38,039 bases of DNA from a virus: positions 1 through 38,039 of the IMG/VR virus record IMGVR_UViG_3300029267_000930; one strand, given 5' to 3'. Position numbers and translations under genes: made by a program. Below, piece after piece: positions 4,762 to 21,643 of the stretch; the stretch's first letter is position 1; each line of letters begins with the position of its first letter. The notes below the pieces were generated by a model. That model saw nothing but the letters and a program-made list of their open reading frames with translations, did no database searches and had not been told where the DNA came from.

Positions 4762-5808
4762 TCAGTCGGCATTTTTAGTCAACTTGCGGACATCGAGAAT
4801 CACAGGCTCGTCTGGTCGATAAATTTCGTCATCGATAATGTTCGTGCCGTCCACAATCAGAAAACGCCTTGATGGCAGCGAGGGAGACGGCAACGGGTGC
4901 GCTTGCAAGTAGGCAGCAATTGCCGCCCTCAGCTCAATCTCCGATGGACACGTTCCCGCCTCTCCATTCGCTCCTGCTGGTCCAACTGGACCGGTGTATC
5001 CGCGTTCTCCTCGATCGCCCTTGTCGCCCTTCAGTTTGTCTCCATATTTGACATACAATGCATCTGCCAACCGCTCATAATCTACAACTGGTTTTCCTGG
5101 TGCTTGCGTCGGTTTCGGCTCTGGTAGCGGTTCCTGCAAAGGTCTTGGTGCTAACGGTTGAACGCGATATTGCGGCGGGTCAATTACAACGCGCGCGCGA
5201 GCCGGCGCCACGGGTGTGACTCGGTATCGAGGTGGGCTGCAATATCCTTGAGGGCAATTCGTTCGCATCCAGTGGCACAAATTCGTAGTTGTCCAAACAG
5301 TGTCGCCGCATCGCGGATTGTTTGCTGAGTTGACGATGGCGACCAAATACCCTTGCTGTGTGACAATGGCACCGCCCGAATCACCGATGCACACATTGTG
5401 AGAGCAGTGATATCGATTGCGTTCCTCATGCTTGACTCGCCTGGCCAACACGGGACCACCCAAGCGACACCCCACCAGCACCGTTCCGTCAGCAGCGTTG
5501 AATTCCTCACTTAGGTAGTAGTTGCTTTTTGATCTCATGCCGCGAATGGCCAAAACGGCGATGTCGTTGCCGTTGCCGTATTCCTTCGCGATCACCTTGG
5601 CCCGATGCGTAGAGACTCGATCACACACCGTCACAGTGGCTGCGTCACCCACGACATGAGCCGCTGTGAGCAGATAACCGAACTCATCATCGTTTCCAAT
5701 AGATACGCACGTTCCTTCACCACGTGCGTTGTCGCGCTGGACCTCAACCTTGTAAACCTGAGCAGGCAGCGAGACACAGAGCAATAGTAAGGCGATGAGT
5801 GTTTTCAT
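4762..5808 (-). CDS. Secreted trypsin-like serine protease with collagen-like repeat
   Basis: A 348-residue protein. A signal peptide is visible at residues 1-17 (hydrophobic LIALLLLCVSLPAQ). A chymotrypsin-fold protease domain follows, with the whole triad: His51 in LLTAAHVV, Asp82 in GNGNDIAVLAI, Ser144 in GDSGGAIV. Several Cys residues suggest disulfides. After a Pro-rich linker (about 190-240) come Gly-X-Y collagen-type repeats at about 256-285 and a further short domain. The collagen stretch probably trimerises the enzyme. On a phage it could degrade a proteinaceous envelope layer during lysis or release, since no peptidoglycan hydrolase was found. The fold and catalysis are well supported; the target is inference. 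An AMP-type or host-derived origin is possible. Confidence 0.85.
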   Translation of the reverse strand: MKTLIALLLLCVSLPAQVYKVEVQRDNARGEGTCVSIGNDDEFGYLLTAAHVVGDAATVTVCDRVSTHRAKVIAKEYGNGNDIAVLAIRGMRSKSNYYLSEEFNAADGTVLVGCRLGGPVLARRVKHEERNRYHCSHNVCIGDSGGAIVTQQGYLVAIVNSANNPRCGDTVWTTTNLCHWMRTNCPQGYCSPPRYRVTPVAPARARVVIDPPQYRVQPLAPRPLQEPLPEPKPTQAPGKPVVDYERLADALYVKYGDKLKGDKGDRGERGYTGPVGPAGANGEAGTCPSEIELRAAIAAYLQAHPLPSPSLPSRRFLIVDGTNIIDDEIYRPDEPVILDVRKLTKNAD

Positions 5809-8880: not shown

Positions 8881-9090
8881 TCAGTTAGAATGGTGCGATC
8901 TGCTGAATTCGTCGATATCCATTAACATTACCAGTGCGTCGAATTGAGCATTGGAGTCAGGATTGCGAATGCCTGCCTGCAGTGCCGCGATGATTGTGCC
9001 TACTGACCTGTCGCCACCATCAATGGCGTCCATGTCACTAACGTTTTTCTTTGCTTTTTCAAGTTTTTCTTGGAATGCGTGCTCGCTCAA
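8881..9090 (-). CDS. Small helical acidic protein
   Basis: A 69-residue protein. It starts at TTG, overlapping the stop of the helicase (TTGA), with a strong GGAGG 7 bases upstream, so its translation is coupled to the helicase. Residues 5-20 are a Lys/Glu helix and the rest is helical and acidic. It may be a helicase partner by position only. Confidence 0.6.
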   Translation of the reverse strand: MSEHAFQEKLEKAKKNVSDMDAIDGGDRSVGTIIAALQAGIRNPDSNAQFDALVMLMDIDEFSRSHHSN

Positions 9091-11774
9091 AACGGGACCT
9101 CCTCAGTTACGACACCATGACGCTTAGTCATTCGTGCCTCGACTTGTTGTTTGCCACCTTCCATCATCGCAATGTTCTGTTGCAGCTCCGGTCGGTCCAG
9201 GTTTTCCTTCATCCATCTCACATAGCCGCTCGGAATCTCGCTAAGCTTCTTTCCAGCGTGCTTGCCGAACGTGACGATGTAGTCTTTGCCAGTGCCGCTC
9301 CTCATCTTGGTGATCACAGCACCGGCCTGCTTCTTCGTGTAGCCTGTCGCTGTCTCCGCCTTGACTCCGAGTTTCATCAGCAGATTGACCTGCTTCTGAC
9401 TCGCCATGTCACGCGTTGGCTGATAGTCCGTGAAGGGATCGAACTGACCACCACCAAACAAATCGACATCGTGCGCTGAGTATTCACCCGACTCCGCATA
9501 GGTCCGTGTCTCCAGTCGTTGCCGTCTGCGTTCTTCTGCCCGCTTCTCTTTCTCTTCGCGGGCCTGCTTGGCTTTCTCGAACAACTCCTGCATGTCGACC
9601 GCTTCATCTGACTGGCGAGCCATCTGAACCGCCATCGACACGTCAGCTTCGACCGTTTCACCAGCGAGGCAATCAGCCACACTGACGAGCTTGTGACGTC
9701 CACTGTTCCCCACGAAATCAAGCACCGTGCAATAAGGCTTAACACTCGCAGCGATCGCAGCACGACGATCAATGGCAGTTACTGGACCGTCCACCGTTCC
9801 AGGCAATGGGCGAGTGCCTCTGCCAATAATCTGACAATTGCCAACAATGCAGACTTTTCCATTACGTCGTGTGACAAGAGTTCCAAGTTGTGATTGCACA
9901 CACCAAACATCCTCGGCACTCCAAGTCTCCACTTGAAACACTGGTCGGTCCTTTGAGTTGCATCCACCAATTGCTTTCCAGCAATTCTTTTTCAAGTGCA
10001 GCTTGAAAAGCGGGTTCTTTCCATGGTTCGGGTACGTTGCCATGTTGCAAGACCAACCACGACGAACTGCTAAGCTTTGAATCCTCTCGGCAAATGTCTT
10101 GTTCCCAGTTGAGATGTGATAGCTTGCTCGCTTCCAGTCCACGTTCTTCGGCTGCTTGTCCCCATCTCCCAAGTGAATCGCATGCAGTAACACGTCAAAC
10201 TGTTCTTCAGTCACAGCGTCAAGAGACTCTGCAAAGTCTTTACTCATGAATGGTTCTAGCTTGCCCCAACCAGTCAGATGTTTGTCGGTGCCGCGTGGCT
10301 TGCCGTGAGATATTGTCCATATCACAGCATCTGATGTGGCATTAAACGATGTCTGTCGCTCCTTAGTTGACTTTGTGAACTTGAATCGACATCCACTAAG
10401 CATTGCGTCAATGTCATTGACCCATGGTTGATGCTCACCTTGAGTGATAGTGATTTGCTTGGTGTATTTATTGATTGTCCCATCAGTCATCACCCACCCA
10501 ATGAATCGCAGTTCATCGTCAGACAATGGGACTCCATCGCTATCCTGGACACCTGACACAGGCACTCGAAATGTATCTACAGTGCGCGCTGCGTCTATCG
10601 CCTTCGTCCTTGTCCATGGTGTCCAAATGCGTTTCCGCCCACGCCTCGTTTTAATCAGCATGTCGTGATTGTCAGTCACGCGAATATCTAAGTGTGGACT
10701 TTGATATGAAACAAATCGCTCATTCGGAAATGCTGACCTTCGAATCTTTCCAATTACCTCACACCACTGAACCCTGCCGCTCAATGGATTCATTGATGCG
10801 ACTTGAGCAATCTGGTGAAGATCACCAATGCCTTTCCAGCCATCTGGAGTCAGTATTTCAGTCTTGCTATCGAGACAGTACAGACTCTCTGATTTCGTCG
10901 GTCGAGCATTGGCCACAATCGCTGTGTCTGGTGCGTCAAAGCCCTCCGTAGCGACCATGCAATTCACCAAAACCTGCGTTTCTTTGTTCTTGTACCGCTC
11001 GACAATCCGTTTCCGTTCATCTTTGTCTGTGCCACCGACAATCAGTTCCGCCGTCGCACCGTGACGATTGAACGATGCTGTGAAATGCTTGGCTGGCTCG
11101 ACTCCCGGCGCGAAAAACAGCACCTGTTGCCCGTTGGCTTCCTTGAGTGTCGGATACACAATCTCATGCAGTGTCTGTTCTTCGTCCGCTGTCAGCTCCA
11201 AAAAAGCTCTCGACAATTCCCCGTCTGCCAGATCACCGCCTGCTTTGGTTCCAACGCCACTGATATCAAGATGCTCACATTCCACAAACCGCTGACGAAT
11301 CGGACACAACCACCCCTCATTGATGCCCGTCAACAGGTCCATCTCATAGGCGACCGAATCAAACACATTGTGCAGCCCCACACCGTCCGCACGCTTAGGA
11401 GTTGCTGTCACGCCCAGAACGTTCAAATCCGGGTTGCCAGTCATGAAGTGCTTGAGGATGCGGCGGTAACTGGTCGCCGATGCGTGATGCGATTCATCAA
11501 TAATCACAGCACCAAAGTCGAGCGGATTCAGCTTGGTCATCCGATAGACTTTGCCGCTGCCTTTGCACTTGCCACAGTCACCGCCACCGCCACTGCACCA
11601 GTCACACTTACGAGTCGAGTTCAGCGTTTGCACAGTCGAGACCACAACATCTGTCCCTTTTGGGCAGAGTTGCGAACCCATCTCGATACCGGCAGTCAGA
11701 CCCGCCCGCTTAGCATGTCCGACCGCCTGAGTGATTAATTCCGTGCGATGTGCAATGACGAGAACTCTAGCCAC
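9087..11774 (-). CDS. DEAH-box SF2 helicase, carboxyl part, with intein (motifs Ia-VI)
   Basis: An 895-codon frame encoding helicase motifs Ia (VIAHRTEL, 6-13), II (IIDESHHAS, 91-99), III (VTATPKR, 122-128) and VI (CQIIGRGTRP, 647-656). Motif I is on the separate upstream ORF. Residues 57-70 hold two CxxC pairs before a CKGSG, a DnaJ-type zinc knuckle. An intein occupies 300-646 and splits motif VI from motif V. After splicing the product would be 548 residues. The tail has a Glu/Arg coiled coil (about 735-755) and a GKHAGKKLSEIPSGYVRWM segment that resembles DUF3820. The GTG start has GGAGG 9 bases upstream and overlaps the upstream stop by 8 bases. It probably unwinds DNA in replication or recombination. 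Confidence 0.85.
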   Translation of the reverse strand: MARVLVIAHRTELITQAVGHAKRAGLTAGIEMGSQLCPKGTDVVVSTVQTLNSTRKCDWCSGGGGDCGKCKGSGKVYRMTKLNPLDFGAVIIDESHHASATSYRRILKHFMTGNPDLNVLGVTATPKRADGVGLHNVFDSVAYEMDLLTGINEGWLCPIRQRFVECEHLDISGVGTKAGGDLADGELSRAFLELTADEEQTLHEIVYPTLKEANGQQVLFFAPGVEPAKHFTASFNRHGATAELIVGGTDKDERKRIVERYKNKETQVLVNCMVATEGFDAPDTAIVANARPTKSESLYCLDSKTEILTPDGWKGIGDLHQIAQVASMNPLSGRVQWCEVIGKIRRSAFPNERFVSYQSPHLDIRVTDNHDMLIKTRRGRKRIWTPWTRTKAIDAARTVDTFRVPVSGVQDSDGVPLSDDELRFIGWVMTDGTINKYTKQITITQGEHQPWVNDIDAMLSGCRFKFTKSTKERQTSFNATSDAVIWTISHGKPRGTDKHLTGWGKLEPFMSKDFAESLDAVTEEQFDVLLHAIHLGDGDKQPKNVDWKRASYHISTGNKTFAERIQSLAVRRGWSCNMATYPNHGKNPLFKLHLKKNCWKAIGGCNSKDRPVFQVETWSAEDVWCVQSQLGTLVTRRNGKVCIVGNCQIIGRGTRPLPGTVDGPVTAIDRRAAIAASVKPYCTVLDFVGNSGRHKLVSVADCLAGETVEADVSMAVQMARQSDEAVDMQELFEKAKQAREEKEKRAEERRRQRLETRTYAESGEYSAHDVDLFGGGQFDPFTDYQPTRDMASQKQVNLLMKLGVKAETATGYTKKQAGAVITKMRSGTGKDYIVTFGKHAGKKLSEIPSGYVRWMKENLDRPELQQNIAMMEGGKQQVEARMTKRHGVVTEEVPF
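9837..10877 (-). mobile_element. Intein with LAGLIDADG homing endonuclease domain
   Basis: Residues 300-646 of the helicase ORF (347 residues) form an intein. It begins with Cys1 in CLDSKTEILTPDGW (block A) and carries the block B motif VTDNHDML. Two dodecapeptide-like endonuclease motifs are visible: RFIGWVMTDGTI near 423-434 and LLHAIHLGDGDK near 529-540. Block F lies at WSAEDVWCVQS, and it ends KVCIVGN before Cys+1. Rejoined exteins give KSESLY-CQIIGRGTRP, an intact helicase motif VI. The penultimate residue is Gly rather than the usual His, a known but less common variant. The second endonuclease motif keeps Asp, so homing activity is possible. Confidence 0.93.
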
Positions 11775-11985: not shown

Positions 11986-12914
11986 TTCGCCACCTCCGTT
12001 TGCAGATGGTTTTTGCGTCCATGTGGGAAGTATCCCCAACCTTTGCAACGGTCGCACTTGTCACCGTGGCAATATGGACAAACAACATGGAACCGGGCCT
12101 GATGCAACTCGTCCTTGATGTCTTTGATGGCCTTGTCAATCACCTGCGGATTGACCATCTCGCAGCCTGGACGCTCGGCAAACTCCAGCAGCTCCCGCTT
12201 CAATTCGTCTAACTGGTGACGCTTTGAATTGATCTGCATCACCTGAGCGTGAGACTCCTTGAGGTGCGCAGGAATCGGCGTTCCATCCGTATCACGAATA
12301 ATCGACGCTTCCTCAATCTCCTCAACATCAAACGTAATGCCACCACTTACCTTGCCAGTTTCGCGAGCGCGTTGGACATCGCCTTTGTTGTCGTCTTTCT
12401 TAGGCGCCTTGCGTTTCTTTCCATCCTTGCCTGTGCGAGTCGACTTTTTCTCATCTCCGCTTGAACTGTAAATATTTACAGTTGACGCCTCTCTCACGCT
12501 CGCAACCAATGGTGCTGACACCTTGGCCTTGTCAGCAATCCAGCGGTCGGACTTCTGTTGCCACTCGTCATCTTCGAGAAGAATCCGCACGGCTTTGCGT
12601 TTGTCTGCGTTGCTGCGTTTCAGTCCGTGGGCTGCGTTGGCTCCCACAGCAGCAAGGATGGCATCACGTTGCGTCCCTTGAATCACATTGGCCTGGATCG
12701 TTCCAAACCCAGCTGCTTTGTGTGCATGCCATCGGTGAAACCCATCGGACAACCAGTATTGCGAGCCATCGAAGTAGACCTCAATCGGCGGCAGTCCGTC
12801 GCCATTGGTCTCTGTCAGGATGTCTCTGTAATCCTTGACCGCGTCATTGTCGATTTCTTCGCGTGCCTGTGTTCCGCCATCAATGCGGATGTTGTCAACC
12901 TTGAGCGTTTTCAT
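11982..12914 (-). CDS. ParB/sulfiredoxin-like nuclease-domain protein with zinc knuckle
   Basis: A 310-residue protein. The ParB-N/sulfiredoxin fold covers about 1-100, with the signature SDGFHRWHAHKAAG (Asp57 to Arg61) and a DAILAAVGANAAHG helix. An Ala/Lys-rich DNA-binding stretch follows (DKAKVSAPLVASVREAST). Then comes a Lys-rich linker, a long helical section, and a carboxyl CPYC...CDRCKGWGYF zinc knuckle (Cys279, 282, 287, 290) of DnaJ type. The ATG at 12914 has GGAGG 9 bases upstream and overlaps the upstream stop (ATGA). Phage proteins of this family can be DNA-binding regulators or nucleases, and a partition role would need a centromere site that was not found. Confidence 0.8.
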   Translation of the reverse strand: MKTLKVDNIRIDGGTQAREEIDNDAVKDYRDILTETNGDGLPPIEVYFDGSQYWLSDGFHRWHAHKAAGFGTIQANVIQGTQRDAILAAVGANAAHGLKRSNADKRKAVRILLEDDEWQQKSDRWIADKAKVSAPLVASVREASTVNIYSSSGDEKKSTRTGKDGKKRKAPKKDDNKGDVQRARETGKVSGGITFDVEEIEEASIIRDTDGTPIPAHLKESHAQVMQINSKRHQLDELKRELLEFAERPGCEMVNPQVIDKAIKDIKDELHQARFHVVCPYCHGDKCDRCKGWGYFPHGRKNHLQTEVAK

Positions 12915-15628: not shown

Positions 15629-15877
15629 ATGCCGTCATCCGTGTACGTCGCATGGTATACACCGGCATATGTCAGTGCAATACTGAATCAGGGTTTATAC
15701 CATGGATACATAAAGAAAAAACGAGTCCGCAAACCGACCTACCCATTGCCGTACGATGAAGACGAACGGGCGATCTGGGAACGTGCAGCGAGAGCCGACA
15801 ACCGATCCCTGGCCAACTGGATTCGCACCACGCTGACCGAAGCGGCGAAACGGCAGATTGAGGAGGCTAAGCATTAG
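15629..15877 (+). CDS. Ribbon-helix-helix (Arc/CopG-like) regulator, the only clear plus-strand gene
   Basis: An 82-residue reading from the ATG at 15629. The core YPLPYDEDERAIWERAARAD and NRSLANWIRTTLTEAAKRQ is a classical ribbon-helix-helix domain: a basic strand, helix A, then the SLANWIR helix B. The true start is uncertain: no Shine-Dalgarno precedes 15629, and a CTG at 15683 or a rarer codon nearer the domain would give about 60 residues. The gene points against all its neighbours and ends 11 bases inside the convergent gene at 15867. A 9-bp inverted repeat just ahead of the domain (15651-15704) could be its operator. It probably represses itself and the divergent helicase operon. Confidence 0.72.
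   Translation: MPSSVYVAWYTPAYVSAILNQGLYHGYIKKKRVRKPTYPLPYDEDERAIWERAARADNRSLANWIRTTLTEAAKRQIEEAKH
15651..15704. promoter_or_regulatory. Inverted repeat, candidate operator of the RHH regulator
   Basis: CATGGTATA (15651-15659) and its exact complement TATACCATG (15696-15704) are separated by 36 bp. They flank the region from which both the RHH gene and the divergent minus-strand operon would be read. Paired short palindromic half-sites are typical ribbon-helix-helix operators. Binding is inferred, not shown. Confidence 0.45.
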
Positions 15878-16259
15878 CGGACTCCTCGAATTGCACTGAA
15901 GACGGGTGTACGTTTAGCGTTTCACCCGCGTACTTTGGGGCATCATCGTCGAAGAGGATGTCCAAGTTGGCACTGCTGTTGTGTCCCACAATGACTCCAC
16001 GGCTATTCCCGACAGTTACGCGTTGACCACAGTAAGCCGTTTCGATTCCACGATATTTGGCGTTGCGTTGAAATGCCTCTGGTGTCACGGGGGGACCAAC
16101 TTTTCGAACACGCAAATCTGTGTATTGGTAATCTGGCCAACAATCCTGAAGACGAATGAGGTACTGATACTTCGCCTTGCTGGCACTGCGGGCGTTGATC
16201 GTATCCCGGAATTCAGGAACTGATGCTACCCACACTTCAAACGCGAACACATCGCTCAC
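15867..16259 (-). CDS. Hypothetical protein
   Basis: A 130-residue protein starting at GTG, overlapping the upstream stop (GTGA). The amino-terminal half resembles small phage proteins with an FRDTINARSASKAKYQYL helix. The second half is beta-rich with QRVTVGNSRGVIVGHNSSANLDILFDDD, which looks like a small SH3/KOW-like barrel. Function unknown. It converges with the RHH gene on the other strand. Confidence 0.6.
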   Translation of the reverse strand: MSDVFAFEVWVASVPEFRDTINARSASKAKYQYLIRLQDCWPDYQYTDLRVRKVGPPVTPEAFQRNAKYRGIETAYCGQRVTVGNSRGVIVGHNSSANLDILFDDDAPKYAGETLNVHPSSVQFEESANA

Positions 16260-18988: not shown

Positions 18989-19374
18989 TTGCCACCTCCC
19001 ATGATTTCGATCAGACTGCGAACGTCTCCACGTGTAGGATCTGATTTAAGTAGTGAACAATTGGCATACACGCCCCAGAAAACTGGAAAGTCGTCAGTCT
19101 GACCAATGAAACGCACTTGCATCGTGGTTGTACTCAAAGCTGAGTCGCGGAAGTTCCACTCGAAGATGAACGGTTGTTGCTGTGCCTGCTTGTCCCATGT
19201 GAATTGCGAGCCGCCTCGCATCCACATGTCATCAAGCCAATCAGCATCGACTGCAATTTGGTCATCGTCACATTGCGTAACCACGTCACGGATAAACTCC
19301 CATGCGTCATGCTTGTAACTGCAATCCCAGTCGGGGTCATCTACTAGATGACGGACGTCATCTGTGATCTTCAT
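18985..19374 (-). CDS. Hypothetical acidic protein
   Basis: A 129-residue, Asp- and Trp-rich protein with a beta-rich centre (FIFEWNFRDSALSTTTMQVR). There is no signal peptide or known domain. Acidic small phage proteins sometimes mimic DNA, but nothing specific supports that here. It overlaps both neighbours by 4 bases. Confidence 0.55.
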   Translation of the reverse strand: MKITDDVRHLVDDPDWDCSYKHDAWEFIRDVVTQCDDDQIAVDADWLDDMWMRGGSQFTWDKQAQQQPFIFEWNFRDSALSTTTMQVRFIGQTDDFPVFWGVYANCSLLKSDPTRGDVRSLIEIMGGGK

Positions 19375-20911: not shown

Positions 20912-21160
20912 TCAGACATCAGCGTTCATCCCTGTGACCTCCCTGCCATAAATCAGTGGCGAATCTGCCACTGGCCGAGTCGGAAACTGTTGGCGAATCC
21001 TTGCCTGCACTTCTCCGCGATGAATGACGACGTCATCTTCAGCATCAAATGCCAGCTTCGTGCGACTTCCTTCCTTGTGTATCACTGTGATGACGATTGG
21101 CTTATGTCCGGGGACTTGAATCACAACCGTCTCACCTGCTTTCCGTGATAAAACCAGCAT
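20912..21160 (-). CDS. csrA: CsrA/RsmA-family RNA-binding translational regulator
   Basis: An 82-residue CsrA. The opening MLVLSRKAGETVVI and the RNA-binding segment DDVVIHRGEVQARI, with the key His-Arg pair, are characteristic. It carries an insertion after strand 1 (VPGHKPIV) and a longer tail than the usual 60-65 residues. AAGGAG lies 7 bases before the ATG, so it is independently translated. Two GGA motifs overlap the ribosome site and start (AAGGAGAAGCAGGATG), the usual layout of CsrA self-repression. It would reprogramme host mRNA translation in the infected cell. The preceding HTH gene runs into it in the same frame. Confidence 0.88.
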   Translation of the reverse strand: MLVLSRKAGETVVIQVPGHKPIVITVIHKEGSRTKLAFDAEDDVVIHRGEVQARIRQQFPTRPVADSPLIYGREVTGMNADV

Positions 21161-21409
21161 CCTGCTTCTCCTTGTTTCAAAAGCTGGGCAGGGAGGGCCA
21201 CCCCACCCAGCGAGGGCATGCAACAGGAGGTCACCAGCCAGTTTGTAAACGGCCACCCATTGAGTTCGGCGATGTGTGCCAACCATTACTGTTGGTAGCG
21301 TTCCATCCTCTAACCAAGCGTCAATTCGCTTGCGGTCGACATTAAGGTACTCAGCAGCCTCAATTGCCTTGCAGAGTCCTGTTTTTCGTGTTGTTTGCGT
21401 GTCGCTCAT
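20912..21409 (-). CDS. Excisionase-type HTH protein reading in frame into CsrA
   Basis: From the ATG at 21409 the frame encodes an 83-residue unit: a helix-turn-helix of the MerR/excisionase (HTH_17) type, LCKAIEAAEYLNVDRKRIDAW, then LEDGTLPTVMVGTHRRTQW, and a Gly/Pro-rich end. No stop follows before CsrA Met, so a 165-residue HTH-CsrA fusion is encoded as well as free CsrA. The start at 21409 is preferred because the promoter-like boxes at 21440-21467 leave a 24-base leader; a longer frame to 21481 would overlap them. It may be an early regulator or the excision partner of a missing integrase. Confidence 0.7.
   Translation of the reverse strand: MSDTQTTRKTGLCKAIEAAEYLNVDRKRIDAWLEDGTLPTVMVGTHRRTQWVAVYKLAGDLLLHALAGWGGPPCPAFETRRSRMLVLSRKAGETVVIQVPGHKPIVITVIHKEGSRTKLAFDAEDDVVIHRGEVQARIRQQFPTRPVADSPLIYGREVTGMNADV
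21179..21211 (-). terminator. Terminator-like hairpin inside the HTH-CsrA frame
   Basis: On the minus strand GCTGGG...CCCAGC (21183-21211) with G/C-rich inner sequence is followed by TTTT (21179-21182), 12 bases before the csrA Shine-Dalgarno. It could attenuate transcription into csrA or fold to control its translation, while still being translated as linker in the long frame. Confidence 0.45.
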
Positions 21410-21439
21410 GTTCGTGCCTGTTCTTCGCTTGACAGGGAA

Positions 21440-21467
21440 ACAATACAGACTCAATTGACATTTGCAA
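21440..21467 (-). promoter_or_regulatory. Sigma70-like promoter of the early operon
   Basis: On the minus strand TTGCAA (21462-21467) and TATTGT (21440-21445) are separated by 16 bases, in an AT-rich stretch ahead of the first early gene. The predicted start of transcription is near 21433. It is the only good promoter between the glycosyltransferase hairpin and the early genes. Confidence 0.5.
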
Positions 21468-21612: not shown

Positions 21613-21643
21613 GGTCGCACGGTGTTGCCCTCATCGTGCGACC
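21613..21643 (-). terminator. Hairpin at the end of the late operon
   Basis: A perfect 8-bp stem GGTCGCAC / GTGCGACC with a 15-base loop overlaps the last codons and stop of the glycosyltransferase. On the minus strand it is followed by TCTTACGCGATTT, a weak U-tract. It probably marks the end of the late transcription unit. The 150 bp from here to the early promoter holds no gene. Confidence 0.45.

Follow-up and report, generated by a model that had tools for sequence, protein, structure and literature searches.

In the viral record IMGVR_UViG_3300029267_000930, all 38,039 nucleotides of which were analyzed here (the window), an ATG at 21409 on the minus strand opens a frame that runs for 165 codons without a stop to the TGA at 20912. 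As the original prediction held, this single frame (20912..21409) encodes a helix-turn-helix (HTH) domain, a linker, and the regulator CsrA, and both domains were detected. The CsrA domain occupies residues 84–139 of the ORF (Pfam PF02599, 48.6 bits against a cut-off of 27). Inside the fused ORF, csrA retains its own ATG at 21160 and, 7 nt ahead of it, a separate Shine-Dalgarno sequence (AAGGAG, 21168..21173, minus strand) that had also been correctly identified. The predicted free product of 82 residues (MLVLSRK… IHRGEV…; 20912..21160, minus strand) starts as csrA does in related viruses, matches CsrA/RsmE structures in the PDB, and exceeds the CsrA/RsmA family cut-off over positions 1–52 of 53 (50.7 bits vs. 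27). RNA contacts in CsrA involve L4, R6 and R44 (E. coli numbering). In the alignment with the relatives the first two are invariant, and so is R48, which aligns with R44 and is the R of the IHRGEV motif. In the predicted structure of the 165-residue ORF, modeled as a monomer, a low-confidence linker (residues 72–85) separates the HTH from the CsrA part, and Foldseek matched the C-terminal half to CsrA/RsmE structures; for the matches of both halves, TM-scores by target length are about 0.6–0.8 and E-values all above 0.001. The openness of the frame is unremarkable by itself, since, by our count, about 11 in 98 viral csrA genes have an in-frame open stretch of 83 codons or more upstream. A real HTH within that open frame is not chance.

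The N-terminal domain (residues 11–67; 21209..21379, minus strand) is predicted to be a small winged HTH with a fold like that of Xis and BldC. By sequence it falls under the Pfam cut-off for HTH_17 (PF12728, residues 17–48, 22.7 bits vs. 27 bits). Its best match, a stand-alone gene with 53% identity at the left end of a prophage in the planctomycete genome G208, clears that cut-off with 35.2 bits. The AlphaFold model has a pLDDT of about 95 for residues 11–60 and shows, with high confidence, a helix–helix–β hairpin–helix arrangement over residues 15–67. Foldseek aligned this half with Xis of the mycobacteriophage Pukovnik (4j2n; TM 0.80 by target length, rmsd 1.1, probability 1.00, E = 1.1e-2) and also with the BldC structures 6ama and 6amk. 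The description ‘excisionase-type’ is thus borne out for the fold and for the position of the gene, but not for a partner recombinase: no tyrosine integrase or serine recombinase (PF00589 or PF00239) was detected in the window or in its close relative L116 (G002; IMGVR_UViG_3300025687_000129). Because neither has a detectable integrase, excisionase work in the window virus seems unlikely unless the record is incomplete, and the HTH more plausibly regulates transcription locally.

A promoter-like element (TTGCAA-N16-TATTGT, 21440..21467, minus strand), under the threshold of the consensus scan, precedes the HTH gene, and the same pattern with the same spacing (TTGNNA-N16-TAYTGT) lies at the same spot in L116 and in a second close relative, L121 (IMGVR_UViG_3300006802_009247). 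This shared element, together with the left-end location of the HTH in the related prophage, supports the proposal that the locus opens the early genes. The gene immediately preceding the HTH is glycosyltransferase-like (PF00534; 21631–22998, minus strand) and closes the late genes; L116 and L121 have other ORFs where the window has this gene. At the end of the glycosyltransferase gene lies a 12-nt inverted repeat (21613..21643, minus strand) that is a possible boundary of late transcription.

The window shares early genes with the G208 prophage (G208:C1, ~674–719 kb; L238, L239, L242), including a helicase (54–57% identity) and a ParB-like gene, and from this match the host of the window virus is probably a member of the Planctomycetota. 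The opposite end of the prophage, at 718 kb, encodes a tyrosine integrase; if the prophage were circularized, integrase and HTH would flank the attachment site, which is the usual place of an excisionase. Comparison of the initial 36 kb of the retrieved prophage stretch gave no structural gene matching the window. A MazG-like neighbor had no match in 392 planctomycete genomes, and that gene yields no host. The helicase gene of the window (9087–11774) contains an intein-like insertion of ~348 codons (9834–10877, minus strand), which is present in the strain contig L113 and absent from the helicases of L114 and the G208 prophage.

Relatives were found by a scan for the csrA-start motif and by searches with neighboring genes. 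L116 and L121, the closest viruses with coverage of the locus, are syntenic with the window and have HTH and csrA as separate neighbors. Many early-gene products of L116 are 85–97% identical to those of the window; its HTH of 66 residues ends with a TGA (5256–5258), 1 nt ahead of the csrA ATG, and csrA runs from 5260 in another frame. In L121, an HTH of 63 residues ends with a TAA, csrA follows 15 nt further, and a second in-frame stop lies between. A stop between the two genes in close relatives had been named beforehand as evidence against the fusion, and both viruses have it. A more distant relative (L118) has an HTH_17 gene and csrA ~550 bp apart. The csrA genes of the window and its relatives have the same start and share a C-terminal PLI motif, and their proteins have diverged to 26–36% amino acid identity, a level as compatible with replacement as with descent. 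Two near-identical strain contigs stop short of the junction (L113 ends at window position 19019 and L002 at 27747), and contigs found by a terminase search also end short of the locus. Long stretches of L113 are 99–100% identical to the window, with segments replaced at 12056–12909 and 15727–16043, which suggests recent recombination between strains.

A three-way DNA alignment of the window, L116 and L121 contains one extra block only, ~38 GC-rich bases separating the end of the HTH from the csrA Shine-Dalgarno sequence (21186..21223, minus strand), present in the window alone of the three; the gap placement is approximate, with the HTH ends of the relatives divergent (35–40% amino acid identity). 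When the block was removed in silico, the HTH frame ended in …VYKLAGDLLSF* and its stop fell 16 nt ahead of the csrA ATG, a layout identical to that of the relatives. The G208 prophage HTH similarly ends about a dozen residues past the shared VYKLAG motif. Since 38 is not divisible by 3, with the insertion the HTH frame misses its stop and continues in that of csrA. In silico, random inserts of the same length and composition fused the two frames 86% of the time, and random inserts of 20–60 nt did so ~29% of the time; selection is therefore not required to explain the fused frame. Altering the block by one or two bases abolished the fusion, which exists only if every base of this GC-rich stretch has been counted correctly in the one contig that covers it.

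The extra block is essentially a hairpin (21183..21211, minus strand) with an 11-bp stem and a 7-nt loop. Its folding energy is −22.1 kcal/mol, with z = −3.5 over a 36-nt stretch chosen around the hairpin and z = −0.17 over 111 nt. A terminator-like hairpin had been proposed ahead of csrA; the hairpin is there, but its resemblance to a terminator does not extend beyond the GC-rich stem, which is followed by TTTT only, and the terminator scan of the region was empty. We rejected it as a standard terminator for lack of a proper U-tract and a scan call. We also rejected it as a dispersed planctomycete repeat, as its pattern had 4 matches vs. 4 for a reversed control pattern (control summed by eye).

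The fusion did not recur in wider searches. A motif scan of ~98 distinct viral csrA loci found none with an HTH in frame upstream of csrA, and the fusion was absent from 50,697 phage records, in which known phages match the CsrA half only; the check proposed originally, to look for the same fusion in other phages, thus found none in either set. When 392 planctomycete genomes were queried with the fusion, matches covered HTH or CsrA but never both domains in one stop-free match (among the matches listed, the best 9 or fewer per genome). Peptide-pattern searches of viral contigs and genomes, for the fusion or for CsrA alone, gave no match. HTH_17 nonetheless outnumbers every other Pfam family among the 83 ORFs that immediately precede viral csrA genes (6/83, two of them from near-identical contigs and with the L116 contig included), and in those inspected it is a separate gene. 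A literature search of open-licence full texts found no paper on HTH-CsrA or CsrA-receiver fusions.

We consider it likely that the locus is an ordinary phage HTH and csrA pair in which the HTH stop has been bypassed by the ~38-nt hairpin insertion. The separate genes in L116 and L121, the single extra block, the stop restored by its removal, and the stand-alone prophage HTH all argue for this reading. The apparent fusion could instead be an error of sequencing or assembly, with one base miscounted in the GC-rich hairpin. The sensitivity of the fusion to a change of one or two bases is consistent with such an error, as is the reliance on one contig, with neither L113 nor L002 nor any other contig covering the junction. 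However, the ~38-nt insertion cannot itself be a one-base error, homopolymer runs within it are at most 4 bases long, and it folds into a clean 11-bp hairpin; we regard an error as unlikely. A further reading, that the hairpin is an attenuator or RNA-processing site tying csrA expression to HTH translation, with the fusion as a by-product, is compatible with the insertion explanation. The strong stem (−22 kcal/mol) and the TTTT just before the csrA Shine-Dalgarno sequence point in that direction, but the missing U-tract, the negative terminator scan, and the absence of the hairpin in relatives make this account doubtful.

The original prediction went further and proposed a dual DNA/RNA-binding fusion, produced alongside free CsrA from a single transcript. 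The open frame, the two intact domains joined by a probably flexible linker, and an internal Shine-Dalgarno sequence that permits two products are all consistent with this proposal. Yet the fusion is missing from both close relatives and from everything else searched, so that it cannot be called established, and the ~38 extra bases that create it occur only in the window. Strand 1 of CsrA carries RNA and dimer contacts, and an HTH placed ahead of it, as here, is therefore unfavorable in principle; in four natural planctomycete CsrA fusions, CsrA comes first and its partner behind. A functional fusion is, in our judgment, rather improbable. That the hairpin insertion created a new dual-specificity regulator, an HTH-CsrA protein binding phage DNA and mRNA beside free CsrA from the internal start, seems improbable too.

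Under the pair-plus-insertion reading, the ancestral state would have been two separate genes, a small Xis/MerR-like winged HTH and then csrA, located where the late genes give way to the early/replication genes. With the HTH stop next to the csrA Shine-Dalgarno sequence, translation of both was probably coupled. The ~38-nt hairpin-forming insertion would then have shifted the HTH frame so that it skips its stop and joins that of csrA. From the two relatives and the stand-alone prophage HTH, we infer that the change was a gain in the window and not a loss in the relatives. Ribosomes starting at the HTH should now make the 165-residue HTH-CsrA protein, a read-through product predicted whenever the HTH is translated, with a putative function that is not conserved. 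Ribosomes at the strong internal site should make free CsrA, which is probably still the main product and the main active one. If it behaves like other CsrA proteins, it would bind GGA motifs in host or phage mRNA leaders, perhaps including its own Shine-Dalgarno region (ACAAGGAGAAGCAGGATG), and alter translation during infection, while the HTH would act as a local DNA-binding regulator.

The locus thus offers a snapshot of two neighboring regulatory genes made one by a small hairpin-forming insertion, and it points to HTH and csrA pairs as a recurring phage arrangement. To our knowledge, no HTH-CsrA protein was known previously, and this would be the first if the fused protein works. The likely hosts, Planctomycetota, have many csrA copies of their own: E. 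coli has a single csrA, and each of five planctomycete genomes (G010–G014) has 7–9.

Compared with known systems, we rate the fused ORF as a lineage-specific variant of the known phage HTH and csrA arrangement, a one-off accident or novelty. The pairs in L116 and L121 have the same place, order, promoter-like element and csrA start, but consist of two separate genes without the hairpin insertion. Xis-type excisionases and MerR-like small winged HTH proteins (Pukovnik Xis 4j2n, BldC 6ama) resemble the N-terminal domain in predicted fold, and the homologous gene at the left end of the related prophage has a tyrosine integrase at the opposite end. In contrast, no integrase was detected in the window virus, its HTH sequence is under the Pfam cut-off, and its HTH runs on into CsrA. 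CsrA is also joined to another domain in one protein in the four planctomycete fusions (L247–L250; G010, G011 and G014), which occur in three genera, but there CsrA is N-terminal and is followed by a helical region and a response-regulator receiver-like (REC) domain, assigned by eye. Finally, csrA genes are known in phages and plasmids (PMC7366521). The window csrA shares with these CsrA/Rsm proteins, such as those of the Pseudomonas phage csrA alleles, a full domain, the conserved MLVLSRK start and the key residues, but within the domain its product is only ~37% identical to Pseudomonas phage CsrA; unlike them, it is preceded in frame by an HTH.
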